DNA of 64,000 nt from Aerococcus urinae (lineage in GTDB: Bacteria > Bacillota > Bacilli > Lactobacillales > Aerococcaceae), in assembly GCF_001543175.1 (NCBI RefSeq), contig NZ_CP014161.1:1860001-1924000 (forward strand), written 5' to 3'. Below the pieces are notes generated by a model that was not told the DNA's origin, did not search any database, and saw nothing but the letters and a program-made list of their open reading frames with translations. Of this stretch, positions 5,968-52,915 are shown in pieces (position 1 is the stretch's first letter; each line of letters opens with the position of its first letter). The position numbers were made by a program, and so were the translations under genes.

Positions 5968-6314
5968 GAGCATGCGTTCTGCTTTTGAAATTTGGTCGTT
6001 ACACAGCCATGGCACCGGTTCGGGCCCAGAGGTCCCTCACCTAGCCAGCTTCAAAGCCAGAGTGTGACAAAAGTATAAAAGCCCTGAACTACTGGAATAA
6101 ACGAAGGTAGAGCCTTTCCAAAGGCTCTACCTTCGTTTATGAAGTGGACGTCAGGGCTACTTTTGGAACAGGTTTGGGGTCGTACGGCTAAAGCCTATGA
6201 TCCCAGCTACGCATACTGAATCCGTAACTTGCTTTGCTTCGAACGGCTTCAGCATAATTCACATCGCTTGCTTGTTCATGGCTAACGACCGCATTTCAAG
6301 CGCCACTACTGCTC
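5968..6314 (-). repeat. Element A, copy 2, interrupted by element B and module C
   Basis: The outer parts (5968-6058 and about 6255-6314) match the two ends of element A in reverse orientation. The middle of the palindrome is split by a complete B hairpin unit (6059-6175) and a degenerate copy of module C (about 6203-6253). Without the insert the copy would be close to the 175 bp of the others. It lies in the 3' region of ppc, before the terminator at 6377-6426, and between convergent genes. Confidence 0.75.
6059..6175 (+). repeat. Element B hairpin unit nested in element A
   Basis: Begins AGAGTGTGAC and ends GGAACAGGTTT, the fixed edges of this family. The outer helix pairs AAAAGTA-GCCCTGA with TTCAGGGC-TTTTAT-ACTTTT, keeping the conserved one-base A opposite six unpaired bases. 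The inner part is a perfect 20-bp hairpin (arm begins TAAACGAAGG). The joint motif GAAGTGGACG is conserved. Same orientation as ppc. Confidence 0.85.
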
Positions 6315-6376
6315 ATAGTTATTAGTTAAAAGAAACTTTATTTAATATTGCCAGTAACAAGAATAAATCAAAAAAT

Positions 6377-18608: not shown

Positions 18609-21600
18609 TCAGCGCTTGGATTTGTTATTCTTACCTAGCCAAGCAAAGAGACAACCCACAAAGACTGCTCCCAATCCTAAAGCTAGCCAATCCTGAGTCT
18701 CACTATCCAATCCAGTCTTAGGTAAGTCCGCTTTTTTATGGACTTGTTTTTGAGCTGGAAGTGATTTTTCAGCGGGGTGGGAGGGATTGTCGGCAGGATG
18801 GCTCACTTTTTCTGTGGCTTTTATTGGAATGTCTGCTTTCTTCGCTTTATCAGCTGGTGGCGTGGGCAGTGTTTCCGGTTCCTTTGGCTTGTCCGGGGGT
18901 GTCACAGGCGGCGTTTCCGGCTTCTTCGGTTTGTCTGGCGGTGTCACGGGTGGCGTTTCCGGCTTCTTTGGCTTGTCCGGTGGCGTCACAGGTGGTGTTT
19001 CCGGCTTATTCGGTTTGTCTGGCGGTGTCACAGGTGGTGTTTCCGGCTTATTCGGTTTATCCGGTGGCGTTTGTGGTTCTTCTGGAAGATAGGCTTGGTT
19101 AACTACTTTGAAGCCGTCCTTCATCCTTCCTAAGTAAGTCACTTTAAAACACTGTCCAGCGATTTGTATCGATCCCTTGGATTCACCTACTTCTTTAATA
19201 CTGTAGTCGTAGGCTTTGGACTTTTCTATCGATTCGTAAACTGGGAGGTTTTTGAAAGTACCTGTCCAGTGATTTTCCGCCGACAAAGTCACTTTTTTAC
19301 CAGTCGCTTGGCCGTCGCGGTAGAGTTCTACTTCGAGTTTATCAACTGGAGCGCTTAGTGACTCGCCTTGGAAATTTAACCAATTCTTCGTCACTTTAAG
19401 CTCTCTGGTTGGAGGCGTCATTGGTGTCCAGGATGGTATCTCTTGGTTGAGAATGGCGAAGCCATCCTTCATCGTCCCTTGGTAAATCGCTTTGAACCAC
19501 TTGCCAGCGACTTGTATCGAACCCTTATCTTCACCTACTTCTTTAATACTGTATTCGTAAGCTTTGGTGTTTTCTATCGATTCGTAAACTGGTAGTCCCT
19601 TAAAGGCGCCTACCCAGTGATTTTCTGCCGACAAGAGCAGTTTTTTACCAGTCGCTTGGCCGTCGCGGTAGAGTTCTACTTCGAGTTTATCAACTGGAGC
19701 GCTTAGTGATTCGCCCTGGAAATTTAACCAATTCTTCGTCACTTTAAGCTCTCGAGTCGGTGGGGTCATAGGAGTCCAGGTTGGTGTCTCTTGGTTGAGA
19801 ATGGCGAAGCCATCCTTCATCGTCCCTTGGTAAATCGCTTTGAACCACTTGCCAGCGACTTGTATCGATCCTTTATCTTCACCTACTTCTTTAATACTGT
19901 AGTCGTAGGCTTTGGTGTTTTCTATCGATTCGTAAACTGGTAGTCCCTTAAAGGCGCCTACCCAGTGATTTTCTGCCGACAAGAGCAGTTTTTTACCAGT
20001 GGCTTGACCGTCACGATAAAGTTCCACTTCAATTTTATCGATTGGAGCTTGAAATGCCTCAGCTCGGGCATTTACCCAATTCTTCGTCACTTTAAGCTCT
20101 CTGGTTGGAGGCGTCATTGGTGTCCAGGATGGCGTCTCTTGGTTGAGAATGGTGAAGCCATCCTTCATCGTTCCTTGGTGGGTCACCTTGAACCACTTGC
20201 CAGCGACTTGGATCGATCCTTTATCTTCACCCACTTCTTTTACGCTGTATTCATAGGCTTTCGAATTTTCAATCGATTCATAAACTGGCAGGTCTTTGAA
20301 GGCTCCTGACCAGTGATTTTCCGCCGACAAGATCAGTTTCTTACCAGTGGCTTGACCGTCGCGATAAAGTTCCACTTCTATCTTATCAACTGGCGCGCTT
20401 AGTGACTCGCCTTGGGAGTTTAACCAAGCTTTCGTCACTTTGATTTCTCGTCTTGGTATCCTGAATGGAATTTCGGTGTTGGTAATTATGAAACCTCGAC
20501 TGACATCACCAGCTACTTTTTGTCTGATATCCGTCCGATATCCTGCCACAGGGGCTTCTTCAACGGTATACTCAATGGGACTGCCGTCTGACTTGAATTT
20601 AGCTAGATTTTTAAAAGTATGCATCCAAAAGGTATCAACTGAAATTTTGCCTTCTTGAATCTTTTCACCGTCTGCTTTTAAGAAAACGGTGACCTCATTT
20701 AACATCTTTCCTATCCACAGCTTAGTGACTTTAATTGATAGTTTTTCTTCTACCTTTTTATTAGTAATGGATTTTATGGCTAATTTTTGTGGATTGTCGA
20801 AGTCTTCTGCCCCAATGGCTACGGGACGAGGATCCAATTGATAGCCGATTGGTGCTTGACTTTCCTTCAAGGTGTAGGCATCTCTTAGCAGATTTTTAAT
20901 CACTATTTCTCCCGCTTGGTTGGTCTCATACTCACCAATAAGGGCGCCAGTACGGTTGCGAATCAGCTTAAATTTAGCGCCTGCTAAGGTTTTATTGGGA
21001 TCCGCTTGATCCGACTTGATCAGTTTAATTTGATAAACATAGCCTTGGGCCTTACCCCCAGCGGAAATATAGCGATAACGACTGATGCCTTCCTCATTGT
21101 TAATCCCATCGCCAGTAAGTCGCACGTAATTTTTAATGACTTCTCCGTCAAGGGCTCGGTAGTCAATTTGGGCCCGATAGGTAATCATCAGGCCTTCGTG
21201 AGGTCTTAAGCGACCAAAGTGAATCTTGAAGTCTTTATCATTCGCTCCCCAAATAATCTTCACTTGGGAGGTCACATTCCTCCCATAGTTAAAATCAAAA
21301 TCACTTTTATTATCGTTCCACTGCCACTTACCCTTATACACGCGCAAACTATTCTTGAGGTATTCCACTTTTTCGCTGACTAAGGCATCTGAAATGACCC
21401 CGTTATAAATGTCTTGTCCCTTGCGATTAATAGAAATCCGATACTGGATGATATGATCCCCTAGTCGGCTTTTCCAGGCATCCTTTTGCAAAGGATAAGC
21501 TTTGGCTCGTTTGACCCCTTGCCAACGTATATTCCCAGCAAAGATCAGCTGGTTACCGATTTTAAAATTCAGAGGAATATTTTTGGCTTTCTTCTCCTTA

Positions 21601-22442
21601 GTATGGTCAACCCGGGTGGAGAAAAATAGGGTTCCCTTGATCCCGGAATGTTTTTCGACATAGTCGGTGTAGGAGAGGGTAAGGGTCTTGGATTGTGGAT
21701 TAACATAACCTCTAGCAACCACTGCTCCGGTCGAATCCTTGACTCCAAAGCGATCAGGGGTATCTTTAAAGACCAGCTCCTTAGGCAACTGAATCGTGGT
21801 GATATCTCCCGCTTTAATGGTATTATCCGGGAGTTGAAAGTTCATATTGACCTTAATCGTCATCCATTGGTAGGCACTATTGACTTTCTGACCATTTGCC
21901 TTGGTCACGCTTACTCCTGTAATCACATCGTCATGGTGGGTGGGGGCACTTCTTAGCCCCACATCAACAGCCTGGTCGGGCAGCTTGTCTACTCTAGCCT
22001 TTTCTGTTGCAAGTATGACTTCCGCAGGCTCTTCGATATTTTTAGGAATTTCCTCTTCTTTGACCCGCTTAGTCTGGATCGTTTTAGTGGAAGGTCTTTC
22101 TTCCTCAGTCGCTCTAGGATTGATGGCATGTGCACCATCACTAGCTACTGCAGTTGCTTGGACTGGTTGGGTATTTTCCTTTAATGTCGCTGGTTCTTGG
22201 TCGCCTCCTTCTTTCACATGGCCAGCAACTTGACTCGTCGTGTCCTTCTTCTCGATTGAATTTACTTCTTTGTGAGATTCAGAACTTGGAGTGACCTGGT
22301 CCTGATCATTTACCTCATTTATTGCCATAACTTCCTGATTAGCAATGGGCGGTCCCAGCTCCTTAGCCTCTACTAGGGTCGGCATGAAACTGAAAATTAA
22401 CATTGCTATTGCCAATAATAAAGCAGTAAATCCCTTCTTCAT
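18609..22442 (-). CDS. LPKTG-anchored adhesin with Cna B-type repeats
   Basis: 1277 residues with GAGGAGGG seven bases before ATG. Signal peptide (hydrophobic core ALLLAIAMLIF, cleavage after VEA), a low-complexity region (about 30-160), a collagen-binding/fibrinogen-type adhesive region (about 165-470), two diverged B-type domains (about 470-650), four near-identical 116-residue Cna-B repeats (each with ELKVTKNWLN and YRDGQATGKK), a Pro-Asp-Lys stalk, then LPKTG at about 1240, a hydrophobic segment and KKNNKSKR-like charged tail. Sortase A would anchor it to the wall; B repeats usually carry isopeptide bonds. Ligand unknown. No pilin sortase is adjacent, so a monomeric adhesin is likelier than a pilus subunit. 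Confidence 0.93.
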   Translation of the reverse strand: MKKGFTALLLAIAMLIFSFMPTLVEAKELGPPIANQEVMAINEVNDQDQVTPSSESHKEVNSIEKKDTTSQVAGHVKEGGDQEPATLKENTQPVQATAVASDGAHAINPRATEEERPSTKTIQTKRVKEEEIPKNIEEPAEVILATEKARVDKLPDQAVDVGLRSAPTHHDDVITGVSVTKANGQKVNSAYQWMTIKVNMNFQLPDNTIKAGDITTIQLPKELVFKDTPDRFGVKDSTGAVVARGYVNPQSKTLTLSYTDYVEKHSGIKGTLFFSTRVDHTKEKKAKNIPLNFKIGNQLIFAGNIRWQGVKRAKAYPLQKDAWKSRLGDHIIQYRISINRKGQDIYNGVISDALVSEKVEYLKNSLRVYKGKWQWNDNKSDFDFNYGRNVTSQVKIIWGANDKDFKIHFGRLRPHEGLMITYRAQIDYRALDGEVIKNYVRLTGDGINNEEGISRYRYISAGGKAQGYVYQIKLIKSDQADPNKTLAGAKFKLIRNRTGALIGEYETNQAGEIVIKNLLRDAYTLKESQAPIGYQLDPRPVAIGAEDFDNPQKLAIKSITNKKVEEKLSIKVTKLWIGKMLNEVTVFLKADGEKIQEGKISVDTFWMHTFKNLAKFKSDGSPIEYTVEEAPVAGYRTDIRQKVAGDVSRGFIITNTEIPFRIPRREIKVTKAWLNSQGESLSAPVDKIEVELYRDGQATGKKLILSAENHWSGAFKDLPVYESIENSKAYEYSVKEVGEDKGSIQVAGKWFKVTHQGTMKDGFTILNQETPSWTPMTPPTRELKVTKNWVNARAEAFQAPIDKIEVELYRDGQATGKKLLLSAENHWVGAFKGLPVYESIENTKAYDYSIKEVGEDKGSIQVAGKWFKAIYQGTMKDGFAILNQETPTWTPMTPPTRELKVTKNWLNFQGESLSAPVDKLEVELYRDGQATGKKLLLSAENHWVGAFKGLPVYESIENTKAYEYSIKEVGEDKGSIQVAGKWFKAIYQGTMKDGFAILNQEIPSWTPMTPPTRELKVTKNWLNFQGESLSAPVDKLEVELYRDGQATGKKVTLSAENHWTGTFKNLPVYESIEKSKAYDYSIKEVGESKGSIQIAGQCFKVTYLGRMKDGFKVVNQAYLPEEPQTPPDKPNKPETPPVTPPDKPNKPETPPVTPPDKPKKPETPPVTPPDKPKKPETPPVTPPDKPKEPETLPTPPADKAKKADIPIKATEKVSHPADNPSHPAEKSLPAQKQVHKKADLPKTGLDSETQDWLALGLGAVFVGCLFAWLGKNNKSKR
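18885..19080 (-). repeat. 42-bp tandem repeats encoding proline-rich stalk
   Basis: About five units of 42 bp encode PDKPxKPETPPVTP, the wall-spanning stalk of the adhesin. Units are nearly identical in DNA, so copy number can vary by slippage. Long open frames on the opposite strand here are a side effect of the repeat. Confidence 0.9.
19081..20452 (-). repeat. Four 348-bp tandem repeats encoding Cna-B domains
   Basis: The marker ATTCTTCGTC recurs at 19383, 19731 and 20079, exactly 348 bp apart, with a diverged fourth copy near 20427. Blocks of near identity alternate with differing blocks (FQGESLSAPVDK versus ARAEAFQAPIDK), which suggests gene conversion. Confidence 0.9.
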
Positions 22443-22757: not shown

Positions 22758-22900
22758 TTGGTGTGACTGTCGCACTCTCTTCTAAACCTGCTCCAAGCGC
22801 AGAGCAAGCGTCCTCTTCAGAAAATTCCAACGCACAGATTTCCTGTGCTTATGGTATTTTCTTCCAGAGGTCTTGCTCTTTTTTGCGCTTGTCGCACTCT
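22758..22900 (-). repeat. Element B unit in the rsmG 3' region
   Basis: A full unit (about 22779-22900) plus a short tail of a second one. Outer helix AAGCGC-A-GAGCAAG pairs with CTTGCTC-TTTTTT-GCGCTT, keeping the 1 versus 6 internal loop; inner helix pairs GAAAAT and CACAG with CTGTG and ATTTTC around AACG/CTTAT. The edge AGAGTGCGAC begins three bases after the rsmG stop codon. Confidence 0.85.
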
Positions 22901-22903
22901 CCT

Positions 22904-23623
22904 TTACGAAATGGGTTTCTTATTGGGTAAACCGGCCTTGCGGGGGTATTTATTAGGGGTTTCTTTGCGTTTTTCAATGACTAGGAGATGGCGTTCGCCG
23001 GCTTGGCCTGGGAGTTCTAAGGCCAAGTCTTGGCTAAACTTGCCGCCTAAGGTCGCAATAGCCTTCTTAGCATCAGCGATTTCTTCATCCGCCTTGGCTG
23101 CTTTCATGGCCACAAAGAGGCCGCCTTTTTTCACTAGGGGTAGGCAGTATTCACTTAAAACGCTCAAGCGTGCGACTGCCCGGGCGGTGGCTAGGTCAAA
23201 TTGCCCGCGGAAGGCCTTATTTTGACCAAAATCTTCGGCCCGGTTATGGTAGGCCAAAACGCCTGTTAGTCCCAGTTCTTCCGTCACGGTTTCAATAAAT
23301 TTAATCCGCTTGTTCAAGCTGTCAACAATGCTGACCTGTAATTGGGGAAAAGCAATCTTGAGCGGGATGCTCGGAAAACCCGCTCCCGATCCCACGTCAA
23401 CCAACTTTTTGCCCGTCAAATCGGTTTCCAAGCTAAAGGCCAGGGTCAGGGAATCATAAAAGTGTTTCAAATACACTTCATCACGGTCGGTAATGGCCGT
23501 GAGGTTAATCTTTTCATTCCAGGATACCAGCAGTTGGTAGTAGTTCTCAAATTGTTGCATTTGTAAATCCGTCAGATCAATCCCTTGCAGAGCCAGGGCT
23601 GCCTTAAATTCTTCAGGGTTCAT
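22904..23623 (-). CDS. rsmG: 16S rRNA m7G527 methyltransferase RsmG
   Basis: 239 residues, AAAGGAGG upstream. SAM-binding motif [16 protein letters not shown], the N-terminal [18 protein letters not shown] and LKHFYDSL segments, and [14 protein letters not shown]. Methylates G527 of 16S rRNA; loss gives low-level streptomycin resistance in other species. Usually follows mnmG directly; here about 14 kb of other genes intervene. Confidence 0.97.
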
Positions 23624-23972
23624 GTCAAATCCTCCTTTGACTTTATCCCATTCATTATAGCATAGGCAGGCTCAGTCTATAAATCATCGCCGAATAGCCA
23701 CTTTCTGCTCTCCTACTTCAGGTAACTTTCCCTCCGAGAAGAAAAAACTTGCGCTCCTTTCCCCTTCATCTGATAAGCTATATAAGTAAAGAGTGTGAGC
23801 TGACAATAAAAAAGTGAAACGCTGGAGGAAATATGCGAAAATCCTCACAGAGGATTGACAAATATTACCGAAGCGGAGTTCACTTTTGTCAGCGAACAGG
23901 TTTGGAACAGATTTTTGTAGTTATAAAAGAGGCTAAGATCTTTACCTGCCTCGGTGGAAAGGAGCCCATAAG
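23624..23972. other. Divergent rsmG-lytS intergenic region
   Basis: 349 bp without a gene, containing the rsmG promoter side, one element B unit at 23790-23904 and the AAAGGAG site of lytS just before 23973. Confidence 0.6.
23790..23904 (+). repeat. Element B unit upstream of lytS
   Basis: AGAGTGTGAG edge, outer helix GCTGACA-AAAGTGAAC versus GTTTCACTTTTTTATTGTCAGC (read on the minus strand), inner helix AATAT-TTGTC-AATCCTC with GAGGATT-TTCGC-ATATT, and GAACAGGTTT edge. This is the only complete unit found 5' of a gene in its own orientation instead of 3'. Confidence 0.8.
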
Positions 23973-27955: not shown

Positions 27956-28131
27956 GAGCAGTAGTGGAGCTTTGAAATTGGTCGTTAGCCATGAACAAGC
28001 AAGCGATGTGAAATACGGGTAGTTGGCGGATAGCCATACTAACCGTTTGAAGCTCGCTAGGTGAGGGACCTCGGCCCGAACCGATGCCATGGCTTTTCAA
28101 CGACCAAATTTCAAAAGCAGAACGAATGCTC
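27956..28131 (+). repeat. Element A, copy 3
   Basis: 176 bp, same ends as copy 1, with the arms extended outward by AATAAATGG on both sides. Located between convergent lrgB and the MFS gene, beyond the lrgB terminator. A 102-codon minus-strand frame here (27834-28142) is a product of the repeat. Confidence 0.85.
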
Positions 28132-30776: not shown

Positions 30777-30952
30777 CGTTATAGCTCCTTTCACAGACTA
30801 TCACTGCCTTTTAGATACCTTTATTATACCCTAAACGTCAGCAATTCTCATGTCTAAGCGCCAGCTGAGGCTAGCTTTTAATCTTTTATAAGTAAGTGAT
30901 GGAGCATTCCCTTATTTTACCGTAAAGGGCAGTCAGATTCACGGTGTTTTTT

Positions 30953-31811
30953 CTTCCAATTGCTATAGCTGTTCGAAGCGTTAGCGAGTTACAGATATAG
31001 TATGCGTAGCGGTTTCGTCCTTTAGTGTGACTGTCGCACTCTAGTGAAAACGTGCTCCAGTCACAGGACGAACGTCCACTTCAAAAACTGCCAACGCTCA
31101 GCTTTGCTGAGCTTATGACAGTTTTTTCCAGTGGTTTCGTCCTTTAGTGTGACTGTCACACTCTAGTTGAGCTCGGATGCCAGCCTTGAAGTTGCTTCAG
31201 AAAATTCCAACGCACAGTTCCCTGTGCTTATGGTATTTTCCTCCAGCAATTCAAGTCTCTAGCGGCGTCCTCACATCCTTACAGTTGAGTTCGGAAGGGT
31301 GAGGGGATGTCCTTTCAGAAAAGTTGAACGACCATCAAGCTGGTCTTATCATCTTTTCTTCCAAGTAATCACCCTCACTGATCCTTCCTCACATCCTTTT
31401 CAAACCTGCTCGCTGACAAAAGTGAACTCCACTTCAGAAATATTTGTCAATCCTTTTCAAGGATTTCCGCATATTTCTTCCAGTGTTTCACTTTTTTGTC
31501 GTCAGCTCGCACTCTAGCCAAACCTGCTCCGGGTGCAGATCGATCTCCACTTCACTAAAGTGCAAGAAATTCTTTTAAAGAATTTTTGCTCTTTAGCTCC
31601 AGTTGCTATAGCTGTTCGAAGCGTCAGCGAGTTACAGATATAGTATGCGTAGCTCTATCGATCTTTGACGCACCCGTCGCACTCTAGTGAAAACGTGTTC
31701 CAAAAGGCAGCCCTGACGTCCGCTTCACTAAAGGTCGACGAATTCTCTATGAGAATTCTTTCGCCCTTTAGCTCCAGCGGTTCAGGGCTCTTATGCCTTT
31801 TGTCACACTCT
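30953..31811 (-). repeat. Element B array, six units plus a partial, corA 3' region
   Basis: About 860 bp of tandem hairpin units: partial 30953-31042, then 31043-31164, 31165-31280, 31281-31398, 31399-31515, 31516-31685 and 31686-31811. Each has a left arm after CCTGCTCC or TTGAGTTCGG, the joint CGTCCRCTTCA or TCCACTTCA, an inner hairpin, TCCAG, and a right arm before GTCGCACTCT or CCTCACATCCTT. Helix sequences differ between units but pair within a unit. Units 31516-31685 and the partial one carry an extra hairpin (module C). The array ends inside the corA stop codon (TAG of TAGAGTG). No gene is present in 30777-31809. Confidence 0.9.
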
Positions 31812-32727
31812 AATGCTTATCAAAGAAGCGTTTTAGGATTCTGGCTAGGATCCACCAGCCTAAGGCGGAGATGATTAGGGCGAAGACCCAGGAAAAGCGG
31901 CTTTGGACAAAGGGGAGGTCCATATTCATCCCGTAGAAACCGGTCACGATAGTCGGTACGGTGAGGAGGATGGAGAGGACGGTAAGGATCCGCATGGTCT
32001 CATTCAAGTTGTTGTTCAGGACATTATTATAGGTGTCGGAGAGGCGGTCGAGAATTTGCCAGGATAGCTCGGTCATTTCCACTAACTGCTTAGCTTCAAT
32101 GACCGCGTCGTCCAACTCCTCAATATCAATTCCGTCCAAGCGTTTAAAAAGCGAAGGTGAGCGGAATTGTTCCAAGAGAATTTCATTTTGCCGGGCCCCA
32201 GTACGGAAATAAGCAATCCCGGTTTCTAAGTCTGACAGGTTGAAGAGGTTCTTACGAGTAGTCCGGGACCGTAATTCCTTAGTTAAGAGATTGCGCTCCC
32301 GGTCCATCTCCTCCACCAAGGGGAAGTATTCCTTAACAATCAAAAAGAGACTAGAGAAGAGGAACTTATACAGCCCCTCATCCGAGTGGCGGTGGATATA
32401 ATGCTTCATCAGCTGGATGACATAATCATTATCCTCATGGGCAAAGGTCAAGAGGACATTGTTGCGAATGATAAAGGTCATCGGCAAGGTTTCATAATGG
32501 TAGTTCACCTTCTTCTTATTGGCAATATTAAAAATAATCAGCAAGGTATCAGTATCATCATCGTACTCCAAGCGGGCCCGTTCATTCTTGTCGCTAGCAT
32601 AGGCCAACATTTCTTCACTGATCCCGTAAGTATTCCCAATATCCAAGAGGTCATCTAAATCATCGACCGGTAAATTAATCCAGGTAAACCGTTCATCCAT
32701 TGGTCCATATTCTTTCACTTTAGCCAT
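31810..32727 (-). CDS. corA: CorA-family magnesium/divalent cation transporter
   Basis: 305 residues. Large soluble N-terminal domain, long helix, and two C-terminal membrane segments with the pore motif YGMNMDLP between them. This subgroup (like Thermotoga CorA / YfjQ) imports Mg2+ or, in some species, exports other divalent ions. The stop codon shares bases with the edge of the downstream element B array, which on the minus strand would be its 3' untranslated region. Confidence 0.93.
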   Translation of the reverse strand: MAKVKEYGPMDERFTWINLPVDDLDDLLDIGNTYGISEEMLAYASDKNERARLEYDDDTDTLLIIFNIANKKKVNYHYETLPMTFIIRNNVLLTFAHEDNDYVIQLMKHYIHRHSDEGLYKFLFSSLFLIVKEYFPLVEEMDRERNLLTKELRSRTTRKNLFNLSDLETGIAYFRTGARQNEILLEQFRSPSLFKRLDGIDIEELDDAVIEAKQLVEMTELSWQILDRLSDTYNNVLNNNLNETMRILTVLSILLTVPTIVTGFYGMNMDLPFVQSRFSWVFALIISALGWWILARILKRFFDKH

Positions 32728-37809: not shown

Positions 37810-37857
37810 ACATTTATGAGTGAATTATTGATAAAAATTTGTTTGGCAAGTAGCTTT

Positions 37858-38033
37858 GAGCAGGAGTGGCGCTTTGAATTTAGTCATTAGCCATGAATAA
37901 GCAAGCGATGTGAAATACGGATAGTAGGCATTAGCCGTACTAGCCGTTTGAAGCTCGCTAGGCGAGAGACCTTGTGCTCGAGCCGGTGCCATGGCTTTTT
38001 AACGACTAAAATTCAAAAGCAAAACGCATGCTC
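37858..38033 (+). repeat. Element A, copy 4
   Basis: 176 bp, same organisation as the other copies, ending 11 bases before the mnmG stop codon. Lies between the convergent ABC operon and mnmG. Nothing else is present in the 37744-38044 gap. Confidence 0.85.
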
Positions 38034-47654: not shown

Positions 47655-48121
47655 CTGTTTTTTCAGCGATTTCGTCCTTTAGTGTGACTGTCATACTCTT
47701 TCAAACCTGCTCCAGTCACAGGACGAACGTCCGCTTCAAAAACTGGTAACGCTCAGTCTAGCTGAGCTTATGGTATTTTCCTCCAGCAATTCAAGTCTTT
47801 TGACGGCGTACTCACATCCTTATAACTGAGCTTATCCCAGTTTTCTCCAGCGATTTCGTCCTTTAGTGTGACTGTCGCACTCTTTACAGTTGAGTTCGGT
47901 GACAAAAGTGAACTCCACTTCAGAAATATTTGTCAATCCTCTTTGAGGATTTCCGCATATTTCTTCCAGTGTTTCACTTTTTCATGTCACCTCACATCCT
48001 TAAAACCTGCTCCAAGCGCAAGGCAAGCGTCCACTTCAGAAAAGGGCGACAGATTCTCTATGAGAATCTTTACTCCCTTTTCTTCCAGTGGTCTTGCCTT
48101 CTGGTGCGCTTGTCGCACTCT
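47655..48121 (-). repeat. Element B array of three units plus a partial, ATPase 3' region
   Basis: Partial 47655-47699, a mosaic unit 47700-47883, a type 2 unit 47884-48001 and a type 1 unit 48002-48121. The last pairs AAGCGC-A-AGGCAAG with CTTGCCTT-CTGGT-GCGCTT. The edge AGAGTGCGAC starts immediately after the ATPase stop codon (48122-48124). No gene lies in 47404-48121. Confidence 0.88.
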
Positions 48122-49918
48122 CTACTTCACTTGCATTCTGGCTCTTAGGGCGTAGAAGATGGCCATGAGGTCCATGACTTCTTGGAGTATGGCTCCGAGT
48201 AAGGCCGGGATAACACCAGTCGAAGCAATCAACATCAAGATAATTGAGGTCACAATTCCAAAGATCACGGCTTGTTTGGCCACTCTCAGGGTGTGTTTGG
48301 CAATTTTAACCGCTTGGGCCACCTTAGACAGGTCGTCCTTTAAGATCACCGCATCGGCGGATTCACTGGCTGCGGTTGACCCGTGGGCCCCCATGGCAAT
48401 CCCGATATCGGCGACAGTTAGGGCTGGGGCATCATTGACCCCGTCCCCCACCATCATGACCGGACGAGACTCTTCTCTTAAGTCTTTGAGCAAGTTAATC
48501 TTATCTTCAGGCAGGAGATTAGCATGAACTTCTTCAATCCCCGCGCTGTCGGCGATCCTTTGGGCTATGTTTTCATCATCACCGGTTAGCATAATAAGCC
48601 GGTCGAGGTCCAAGCTTTCTAATTCATGGATGGTGGCTGGGGCTTCAGGACGGATTTGATCGTTAAAGGTAATCCGACCAGCATAAGCACCATCGATAGC
48701 CACATAGACATTGGTCTTGCCGTCAGTAATCTTTTCAGCTCCGACAAAGTCTGCCTTACCCACCTTGACTTCCTTGCCATCCACTTGGCCTTGGACCCCA
48801 GCAGCGGTCACTTCTTCTAAGTGGTTAACGGGACTGAGGTCTAAGCCCTTGTCATGAGCTGCATCCACTAAGGACCGGGCCAAAACGTGGGTCGAGGATT
48901 GTTCGGCACTGGCTGCATAGTGGAGAATATGATCAGCCTCAAAGCCCGCTTGGACTTCGATATCATCAACAGCTAGAGAACCCTGGGTAATGGTCCCAGT
49001 CTTATCAAAGGCCGCTGTTTTGACTTGGTCGAGTTTTTCCAAGCTGGTGCCTGATTTCATCACAATCCCATTGCGGCTAGAATTACTCATCCCACCCACA
49101 ATGGCCACCGGAGCAGCAATAATCAAAGGACAAGGTGACGCCACCACCAGGACTTCAGCAAAACGAACCGGGTCTTTAGAGACAAACCAGGCGATAAAGG
49201 CAATGGCATAGGCAATAATGGTAAAGGGCACCGCATAACGGTCAGCCAGGCGGACAAAGGGAGCGGGCTCTTCCTTAGAATTCTCCACCAGGGCCACTAA
49301 ACGTTGGTACTGGCTATCCTTAGCTGCCTTTTTCACTTCAAAGGTTAAGCTGGCGTCCCCATTAATAGACCCTGACATGAGTTCATCGCCCACGCCTTTT
49401 TCCACGGGTTTGGATTCTCCGGTCAAGGACGATTCGTCGACAAAGGTCTCGCCTTGGACAATGACTCCGTCCACGGGCACCAACTCATTGGGACGGACCC
49501 TAACTTGGTCGCCAACTTCAATCTCTTCCACCGGGATGGAATCTACCGAACCATCCGCATTAATCCGGTGGGCAAATTGGGGAGAGTGTTCCAGTAAGGC
49601 TTCCAGTTCCCGACTGGCTTGTTGGGTGGCATAGGCTTCCAGGGATTCTCCCCCAGTCATCATCACGAGGATCATTAAACTGGCCCAATGTTCCCCCACG
49701 GCTAGAGTCGCTAGGATAGCGGTAATCGCCAGAATATCCACCCCATAGTAACCATCCTTTAGGGTTTCAATCATATCCTTAGCCAAAAGAAGGGACATGA
49801 TAATTCCCCAAATGGCAATCAGACAAAAGGCCATGGTCTCCTGCCCCATGAGAAATTGTAGGCAGAGGGCAACTGCACCAGTGACCAAGGTCACGATGAA
49901 CTGTTGAAAATCAGTCAT
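48122..49918 (-). CDS. P1B-type heavy metal ATPase with SPC motif
   Basis: 598 residues, six to eight membrane segments, no N-terminal metal-binding domain. The phosphorylation site DKTGTITQG, TGES actuator motif (SSLTGESKPV), and MVGDGVNDAPAL hinge are intact. The metal-site helix reads VASPCPLIIAAPVA, i.e. SPC instead of CPC or TPC, as in P1B-4 pumps linked to Co2+, Fe2+ or Zn2+ export. The ion is not decided. AAGGAGG upstream of ATG. Confidence 0.9.
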   Translation of the reverse strand: MTDFQQFIVTLVTGAVALCLQFLMGQETMAFCLIAIWGIIMSLLLAKDMIETLKDGYYGVDILAITAILATLAVGEHWASLMILVMMTGGESLEAYATQQASRELEALLEHSPQFAHRINADGSVDSIPVEEIEVGDQVRVRPNELVPVDGVIVQGETFVDESSLTGESKPVEKGVGDELMSGSINGDASLTFEVKKAAKDSQYQRLVALVENSKEEPAPFVRLADRYAVPFTIIAYAIAFIAWFVSKDPVRFAEVLVVASPCPLIIAAPVAIVGGMSNSSRNGIVMKSGTSLEKLDQVKTAAFDKTGTITQGSLAVDDIEVQAGFEADHILHYAASAEQSSTHVLARSLVDAAHDKGLDLSPVNHLEEVTAAGVQGQVDGKEVKVGKADFVGAEKITDGKTNVYVAIDGAYAGRITFNDQIRPEAPATIHELESLDLDRLIMLTGDDENIAQRIADSAGIEEVHANLLPEDKINLLKDLREESRPVMMVGDGVNDAPALTVADIGIAMGAHGSTAASESADAVILKDDLSKVAQAVKIAKHTLRVAKQAVIFGIVTSIILMLIASTGVIPALLGAILQEVMDLMAIFYALRARMQVK

Positions 49919-52022: not shown

Positions 52023-52685
52023 ATGAATAAGAAATTGAAAATCTCACTAGTCAGTCTAGCCAGCATCTTTACCCTAGCTGCCTGTGGCCAAGCGAATGAT
52101 GGGGGAAATAGCTCCAAGACTGACCAAAATGAAAGCAGCCAGGAAGTTTCCAAAGAAACCAAGGGAGAAACGGCTTCCAAAGAGGAAAACCAAGACCAAC
52201 AAGAATCTAAAGAGGGCAATAAGGACCAAGCGGAATCCAGCCAAGACCAAGACGGTATTGAAAATAAAGAATACGCCATTTCTATCGAGGATGCCGTTAA
52301 TAAGTTTAACGAAGAAACCGGCGCTCAAGACGTTAAAATTGAAGAAATCGAATTTGACTATGAAGAAGAATTCAGCAAATATACCTATGAAATCCAAGGC
52401 TACAACGCTGAAAATGAATGGGACATGCACATTGATCCCGATAGTGGTGAAGTCTTGAAAGTAGAAGCTGAAAAAGAAGCCAATGATGAAAGCAAACAAA
52501 TCGAAGTCACCAGCCTAATCACACCAAAAGAAGCTATGGAAAAAGCGCTTGCCGAACACCCAGGCGAAAAAGTCAAGAACTGGGAACTCTCTGTTGATGA
52601 CAACGGCGTCATCCACTATGAAGTCGATCTCACCAACGTCGATGATGTGGATGTCAACGCAAGCAGCGGAGAAATTATTCCTTAG
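52023..52685 (+). CDS. PepSY-domain lipoprotein
   Basis: 220 residues. Lipobox LAACG (Cys at 21), a long Glu/Lys/Gln/Ser linker (about 25-85), then two PepSY-type modules (about 85-145 ISIEDAVNKFNEETG, and 160-218 ITPKEAMEKALAEHPG). PepSY proteins are extracytoplasmic and may inhibit proteases or interact with the wall; role unknown. The gene ends six bases before an element B unit. Confidence 0.9.
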   Translation: MNKKLKISLVSLASIFTLAACGQANDGGNSSKTDQNESSQEVSKETKGETASKEENQDQQESKEGNKDQAESSQDQDGIENKEYAISIEDAVNKFNEETGAQDVKIEEIEFDYEEEFSKYTYEIQGYNAENEWDMHIDPDSGEVLKVEAEKEANDESKQIEVTSLITPKEAMEKALAEHPGEKVKNWELSVDDNGVIHYEVDLTNVDDVDVNASSGEIIP

Positions 52686-52691
52686 AGGGAA

Positions 52692-52915
52692 AGAGTGTGA
52701 CGGATGCACCAAAGATCGATAGAGCTACGCATACTATATCTGTAACTCGCTGACGCTTCGAACAGCTATAGCAACTGGAGCTAAAGAGCAAAAATTTTTG
52801 AAAAGACTTTCTTGCACTTTAGTGAAGTAGAAGTCGATCTGCAGCCGGAGCAGGTTTGAAAAGAGTATGATAGTCACGTCAGTGGACATTCGTCCTGTGA
52901 CTGGAACACGCTTGA
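52692..52915 (+). repeat. Element B: one full three-hairpin unit and one degenerate unit
   Basis: Full unit 52692-52858, with module C at 52731-52781, and outer helix (minus strand) GGCTGC-A-GATCGA opposite TCGATC-TTTGGT-GCATCC. A degenerate unit 52862-52915 keeps its outer arms (GTGACTAT/GTCACAGGACGAA-like) but lacks the inner hairpin. It lies between the lipoprotein stop and the terminator at 52925-52965, same orientation as the gene. Confidence 0.8.

Follow-up and report, generated by a model that had tools for sequence, protein, structure and literature searches.

Could a hairpin keep its shape while nearly the whole of its stem sequence is exchanged, and if so, is it RNA or DNA that folds? 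This question is raised by the repeats at 30953-31814 of a 64,000-nt stretch of the Aerococcus urinae genome (the window, meaning the whole stretch analysed, in whose positions all coordinates are given). A preliminary description had named ten places in the window where repeat units pair internally despite near-total differences between their helix sequences. Units are present at 10 of the 10 places, and their stems indeed differ yet pair. Eleven units were located in the window with a structural descriptor, unrelated chance hits being discarded by eye, and a twelfth (31168-31282) was supplied by a covariance model.

Read in element sense, which is the minus strand for the array 31046-31814, a unit begins with an edge AGAGTGYGAC, proceeds through helix P1, a bulge, helix P2, a joint with helix P2b and the inner hairpin P3/P4, and runs back over the return strands to an edge GARCANGTTT. 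P1 has about 7 bp and P2 about 8 bp, the latter opening with a mostly constant A-T pair; between the two helices about 5 nt (GTTTA-like) bulge out on one side only, and the sequence of P3/P4 is very variable. The preliminary description had placed a lone A opposite five or six bases here; the one-sided bulge stands, but the A pairs with T in 78 of 88 cells. The joint and the edges, which it had listed as conserved, turn out to be largely paired as well: CCRC of the joint mostly pairs with GYGG, which gives a further covarying helix of 4 bp (P2b), and three bases of each edge are paired in most units, TGC or TGT of one with GCA or ACA of the other. The RNA folds predicted for the element-sense strand of four window units have the same shape (z -7.96 to -12.06), as have two units folded as DNA on both strands. 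In the Aerococcus genome only some sites carry a second, terminator-like hairpin 3' of the unit (by eye), and the full-length copy in relatives measures about 170 bp: 172 bp in genome G297, 171 bp in G165 and 167-168 bp in G025. A further hairpin of 48-49 bp, the X module, has stem exchanges of its own (CTATATCTGT/ACAGCTATAG versus CTGAATCCGT/ACGGCTTCAG) and lies directly 5' of the C/TTGGA of a unit in 20 of 22 copies, taken from stretches of this genome and from A. tenax. The features of the window are as follows.

31689..31814, minus strand: unit whose 5' edge in element sense (minus strand) contains a TAG stop (31810-31812)
31810-32727, minus strand: CorA-family ORF, named from the A. tenax annotation, with its stop codon in the edge of unit 31689..31814
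31518..31688, minus strand: unit whose P2/P2b joint contains an X module
31605..31653, minus strand: X module of 49 bp, followed by AACTGGA
31400..31518, minus strand: unit of stem class GCTGAC/AAAGTGAA (plus-strand letters), found by descriptor and covariance model
31168..31282, minus strand: weaker array unit, found by the covariance model (56.4 bits)
31046..31167, minus strand: unit of stem class AGTCAC/GGACGAA (plus-strand letters), found by descriptor and covariance model
30953..31045, minus strand: remnant of a further unit on the 3' side of the array (by eye)
30962-31010, minus strand: X module inside the remnant 30953..31045
47701..47886, minus strand: unit containing a partial second unit (by eye)
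47886..48003, minus strand: unit
48001..48124, minus strand: unit whose edge provides the stop codon of the minus-strand ORF 48122-49918
22782..22903, minus strand: unit directly 3' of the stop codon of rsmG (22904-23623, minus strand)
23787..23905, plus strand: unit found by descriptor and covariance model
23929..23952, plus strand: second stem-loop of the element at 23787, GAGGC..GCCTC, terminator-like (by eye)
52689..52859, plus strand: unit 3' of the stop codon of the plus-strand ORF 52023-52685 (PepSY protein)
52724-52772, plus strand: X module in unit 52689..52859
6056..6177, plus strand: unit with no X module, found by the descriptor
6206-6253: X module copy that does not lie directly 5' of the C/TTGGA of a unit

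Then, is the fold kept through real compensatory change? In an alignment of 92 own-genome units fitted with a covariance model, standard pairs fill 92.1% of 2442 cells. The covariation score is 0.672 against 0.204 in shuffles, a value reached by none of 500, and it is at most 0.115 when the structure is slid along the alignment. In both alignments studied, own units and relatives, neither this score nor the fraction of paired cells is matched by any shuffle or slid version. Double changes occur in 26 of the 28 pairs of these units, which was equalled by 20 of 500 shuffles; for alignment A3, with 68 units mostly of relatives (48 sources including A. tenax), the count of such pairs was equalled by 0 of 500. 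It should be noted that alignments fitted in this way lean to the structure. Since both the fitting and the relatedness of the copies can mislead, a tree-based null was built (FastTree tree, Fitch changes, random replacement on branches, APC-corrected G test, 60 null alignments). In this test, which is R-scape-like but is not R-scape itself, 21 of 28 helix pairs reach E<0.05 in the 92 own units, and 24 of 28 do so in the 68 units mostly of relatives. Significant pairs outside the structure number 0 of 7353 and 0 of 7232, respectively, each set being corrected for its own number of tests, which sets a higher bar for the non-structure pairs. The helix covariation claimed in the preliminary description is thus confirmed in both alignments. 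The compensatory changes exist, but not all changes are compensatory. With G-T counted as a mismatch, P1 and P2 together contain no mismatch in 46 of the 92 own units, one in 22 and two or more in 24. Between nearest-neighbour stems, single-sided differences stand against double ones as 42 to 8 in the own genome and as 15 to 13 in the set mostly of relatives; with incomplete stems set aside, these comparisons covered 74 of the 92 units and 61 of the 68. Two perfect stems set apart by nothing but a single exchanged base pair were found six times in the own genome and eight times in the second set, and by hand count 5 of these 14 listed exchanges cannot pass through a GU pair. Capture of whole stems from the target is not favoured as the source of the stem diversity, because conserved bulges split the variable helices and single base-pair exchanges exist.

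The kind of mismatch that is tolerated bears on the molecule that folds, as an RNA helix tolerates G-U and does not tolerate A-C. In P1 and P2, G-T and A-C occur in 27 and 32 of 1319 cells in the own genome and in 10 and 10 of 1000 cells in the set mostly of relatives, that is, 37 versus 42 when pooled (binomial p=0.65). The corresponding counts for tRNAs of the same genome are 52 versus 0 (37 tRNAs, 808 pairs; Fisher p=1e-12 against the units), this control consisting of the tRNAs found in 30 loci of 60 matches, where some mismatches may be concealed by the ARAGORN brackets. An A-C read from one strand becomes a G-U when the opposite strand is read, and RNA-type tolerance is therefore seen on neither strand. 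The wobble counts argue for pairing at the DNA level and against copy-by-copy selection as RNA, although a role of both strands as RNA would be compatible with the same counts. Consequently, of the two forms proposed earlier, RNA or extruded single-stranded DNA, DNA-level or both-strand pairing is favoured. Pairing at the DNA level does not by itself show that anything binds the folded DNA; that the folded form is what is recognised, as the preliminary description held, we infer, and insertion sites that resemble hairpin remnants (see below) fit.

Complementary arms could also persist with no selection on the fold at all, if intrastrand template switching (quasipalindrome correction) kept them complementary and the loops were merely slow to change. 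Pairing that is wobble-free and strand-symmetric would be expected of such a process, and the 5 of 14 exchanges that are impossible via a GU pair point the same way. However, from one family to another the unpaired motifs and the edges can still be recognised, which is not so for the stems (by eye), and one-sided differences are common between close copies of the own genome, so that correction by template switching must be incomplete. We therefore regard this explanation as quite improbable.

How widely do such units occur? A covariance model built from eight window units (R1) gave 109 matches at E<=10 over the 1.97 Mb Aerococcus genome, 98 of them at E<0.005. With the own genome counted in both cases, at least 21 of the 60 relatives' genomes searched contain matches at E<=0.1, and at E<=1e-4 at least 45 of 395 Lactobacillales genomes do, in 17 of 80 genera. 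These are minimum values, since scoring covered a fraction of the first-look candidates (150 of 471 in the own genome, 59 per genome in the 60-genome search and 9 per genome in the 395-genome search). A second model built from A3 (R2) was run on 29 genomes of one further family; 12 of these have matches, two of the 12 containing 122 and 83. A search of Rfam, which had been proposed as a check, gave no match at gathering score for the window and 20 loci, and two matches far below that score (E<=5) fall in 30900-31850; identity with an Rfam RNA family was dropped on this result. The G165 element found no match among 50,697 phage records by blastn, and plasmid searches with this element and the window array matched only a record of A. 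tenax. Spread on phages or plasmids was rejected on these searches, in which copies with other stems would escape blastn. The A. tenax record in question (CP127381.1, 591,691 bp), filed as a plasmid, carries rpmH, rnpA, yidC, jag, rsmG and rpoN; it is probably part of the A. tenax chromosome.

The arrays also have a preferred place. When 98 of the 109 model hits (the 11 weakest being dropped) are grouped into 72 same-strand arrays, 34 of the 72, that is, about half, start between -5 and +14 nt from the stop codon of an ORF on the element-sense strand, the ORFs being defined mechanically (at least 80 codons, start within the stretch). On the other strand 0 of 72 are so placed, the nearest stops lying at -35 and +31. 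The sequence pattern is a stop codon, a few nucleotides and then GTG, and a terminator-like hairpin lies 3' of the array in a number of cases (by eye). The one-sided bias is a property of the own genome only. Elsewhere stops often lie near both sides, as expected of terminators between convergent genes: an opposite-strand stop occurs within 30 nt of 5 of 14 full-length copies in G297, 6 of 7 in G165 and 1 of 8 in G025. This one-strand placement, the terminator-like hairpins and the strongly predicted folds would all suit a structured RNA, in which 3'-UTR hairpins are selected copy by copy for mRNA stability, for termination or for ribosomes at the stop codon; the clue to function would then be the place next to the stop codon.

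Comparison with A. tenax, whose record is 84-97% identical to the window over the main alignments, bears on this explanation. The elements at 23787 (together with its second stem-loop, 23929..23952) and at 52689 are absent from the A. tenax sites. At the site of unit 22782..22903 A. tenax has two different units, and its orthologue of unit 6056..6177 contains an X module. Element-free sites and changing array content are thus found within a close relative, and in G165 the 7 copies examined are nearly identical over 171 bp, the terminator-like second hairpin included. Elements that are missing or altered in a close relative, near-identical copies at different places in relatives, the lack of any wobble excess on either strand and the absence of Rfam matches at gathering score all count against structured RNA, which we judge unlikely, if less so than template switching. 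At 52675-52690, the PepSY gene ends in ..EIIP with a TAG adjoining the element, and at the element-free A. tenax site it ends in ..EIINK (both by eye).

A second, longer modular repeat family, ..GCTCGCTAGGCGAGAGACCTT..GGTGCCATGGCTTTTTAACGAC..GCAAAACGCATGCTCAT.., is found at 37857-38030 and also at about 28040-28110 and 5980-6340; A. tenax has no copy at the site corresponding to 37857 (by eye). The large Cna-B type surface-protein ORF at 18609-22442 has internal repeats, and its A. tenax counterpart is longer, with repeats that align in several ways.

Around 29 full-length copies, one flank is an inverted repeat of the other, with a mean score of 4.97 against 3.78 for mismatched flanks (p=5e-5). 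These copies come from three other genomes, none from the own (14 of the 60 matches in G297, 7 copies in G165 and 8 in G025), and the values per genome are p=0.013 for G297, p=0.00015 for G025 and p=0.10 for G165. Therefore, the elements probably lie inside former hairpins.

The preliminary description knew of no described family that fits, but one does. Among 395 genomes G297 is the likely Enterococcus faecalis, judged solely by its size of 2.9 Mb and by a 16S oligonucleotide that has four exact matches in it. Here the same plan recurs as a size-variable repeat of 172 bp that fits EFAR, or Efa-1. It has 60 matches there, some of them pieces of about 42 and 74 bp, a modular size variation, and it folds with the same 5-nt GTTTA bulge and helix-bulge-helix plan. 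R2 finds 13 matches in this genome at E<=10, ten of which are 119-121 nt long with E from 1.5e-4 to 0.16 and are singly weak. EFAR is reportedly about 170 bp long and modular with size variants, and is said to insert into stem-loops, with the target stem partly kept. Length, two adjacent stem-loops and modular size variants are thus shared between EFAR/Efa-1 and the present family, and the reported insertion into stem-loops matches the inverted-repeat flanks of the 29 copies. Unlike EFAR, the own-genome units often stand in tandem arrays, many with no second hairpin of their own, and show many stem classes, the extra X module and a one-strand place 3' of stop codons. Consequently, the window units are apparently related, as far as sequence and plan indicate, to the EFAR repeats of enterococci; the family is apparently wider than EFAR, and it is not new in kind because it fits EFAR. 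BOX and RUP of Streptococcus pneumoniae, a related bacterium, are likewise small interspersed intergenic repeats. In PMC2267715, Efa-1 of E. faecalis is a pair of adjacent stem-loops and is entered as "163, 65 (18)", which we read as length and members, and the EFAR paper (De Gregorio et al., 2009, FEMS Microbiol Lett 292:7-12) is mentioned and cited in PMC3733652. Among the literature matches listed there is no paper on Aerococcus repeats, and no description of DNA-type covariation or stop-codon placement among those listed for Aerococcus repeats, EFAR and IS1182/IS1272.

Which enzyme could move such elements? The A. tenax orthologue of unit 48001-48124 has an IS1182-family element of 1751 bp at its hairpin tip; its stem is still there, but the tip itself is gone. 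A member of this IS family, IS1272, replaces stem-loops, whereby the target loop is lost; target duplication is not reported in the two papers (PMC4923244, PMC5678879). Hairpin targets and similar terminal inverted repeats are thus common to IS1182/IS1272 and the present family, but IS1182-type elements encode a DDE transposase, for which the palindromic elements are too small. Among the IS loci examined in other genomes, 13 of 18 have matching ends on both sides, either GAGGCTGGGACAAAA or, in G056, GAGGCTGACCCAAAA, and the other five do not. When 15 element ends from eight genomes are set against the IS end GAGGCTGGGACAAAA at the best offset, 11-15 of the 15 positions agree (p 0.0002-0.016 by mononucleotide shuffle, for hand-picked ends), and in G025 and G150 both element ends carry the same variant. 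As hairpin remnants, the flanks of 14 IS copies give a weak signal (p=0.037). No link between EFAR and IS1182 was found in print among the matches listed in the open-access literature.

The distribution of the transposase speaks against the IS1182 link. A protein search of 32 genomes detected the IS1182-type transposase in 14, of which G025 has a fragment only; no copy was detected in the own genome or in G001, G002, G010, G013, G026, G165, G297, G185 or G133. Searched for by its DUF772 family, the transposase occurs in 4 of 18 genomes and is absent from 11 of the 12 element-rich ones among them, the own genome and G165 included; G009 is the sole element-rich genome of the 12 that has it. G056 has 11 transposase matches, several of them fragments, and no element at E<=0.001. 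An autonomous IS of the IS1182 type is present in A. tenax and was not found in the own genome; transposase copies may have been lost or be strain-specific.

A different partner, a Y1 (HUH) transposase recognising the hairpin as single-stranded DNA, is suggested by REP/RAYT systems, as the units resemble REPs in being extragenic palindromes with conserved unpaired bases and many copies; REP palindromes measure 20-40 bp according to PMC3733652. Among 36 genomes, 13 contain Y1_Tnp, and the element-rich G009 is one of these. However, it was not found in the own genome or in the element-rich G001, G002, G010 and G013, and G011, with 18 Y1_Tnp matches, has only 5 element matches. On this distribution over 36 genomes mobilisation by RAYT/Y1 was rejected; we hold it to be very improbable.

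We consider it fairly probable that each unit forms the main hairpin of a palindromic mobile element of the EFAR type, small and non-autonomous, which replaces terminators and uses folded DNA in transposition. On insertion such an element would take the place of a hairpin, in many cases an intrinsic terminator, and the replacement would be tolerated because the element brings its own terminator. Arrays and nested modules would arise because the element is itself a hairpin target. The stems would have to pair because the transposition machinery uses folded or cruciform DNA, and only the unpaired motifs and the ends would be read as sequence. If only shape, unpaired motifs and ends are read, stems would drift by base-pair exchange, which would produce RNA-like covariation with no RNA function. 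At the same time, the elements would reshape the ends of genes, exchanging the terminators that directly follow stop codons. The step of which we are least sure is the enzyme, which may be one of the stem-loop-replacing IS1182 kind acting in trans. The broader proposal that EFAR and the Aerococcus arrays are order-wide hairpin-replacing DNA elements, with folded DNA as both substrate and target of an IS1182-kind transposase, is offered tentatively and with more doubt than belief.

If this account is true, covariation, the usual mark of a functional RNA, would also arise from selection on folded mobile DNA, and the ratio of GT to AC would be a cheap way to tell RNA from DNA folding. EFAR repeats would be joined to the transposition mechanism described for IS1272, and tandem and nested hairpin arrays would be explained. 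Small elements of this kind would then have rewritten the 3' ends of many genes of lactic acid bacteria.
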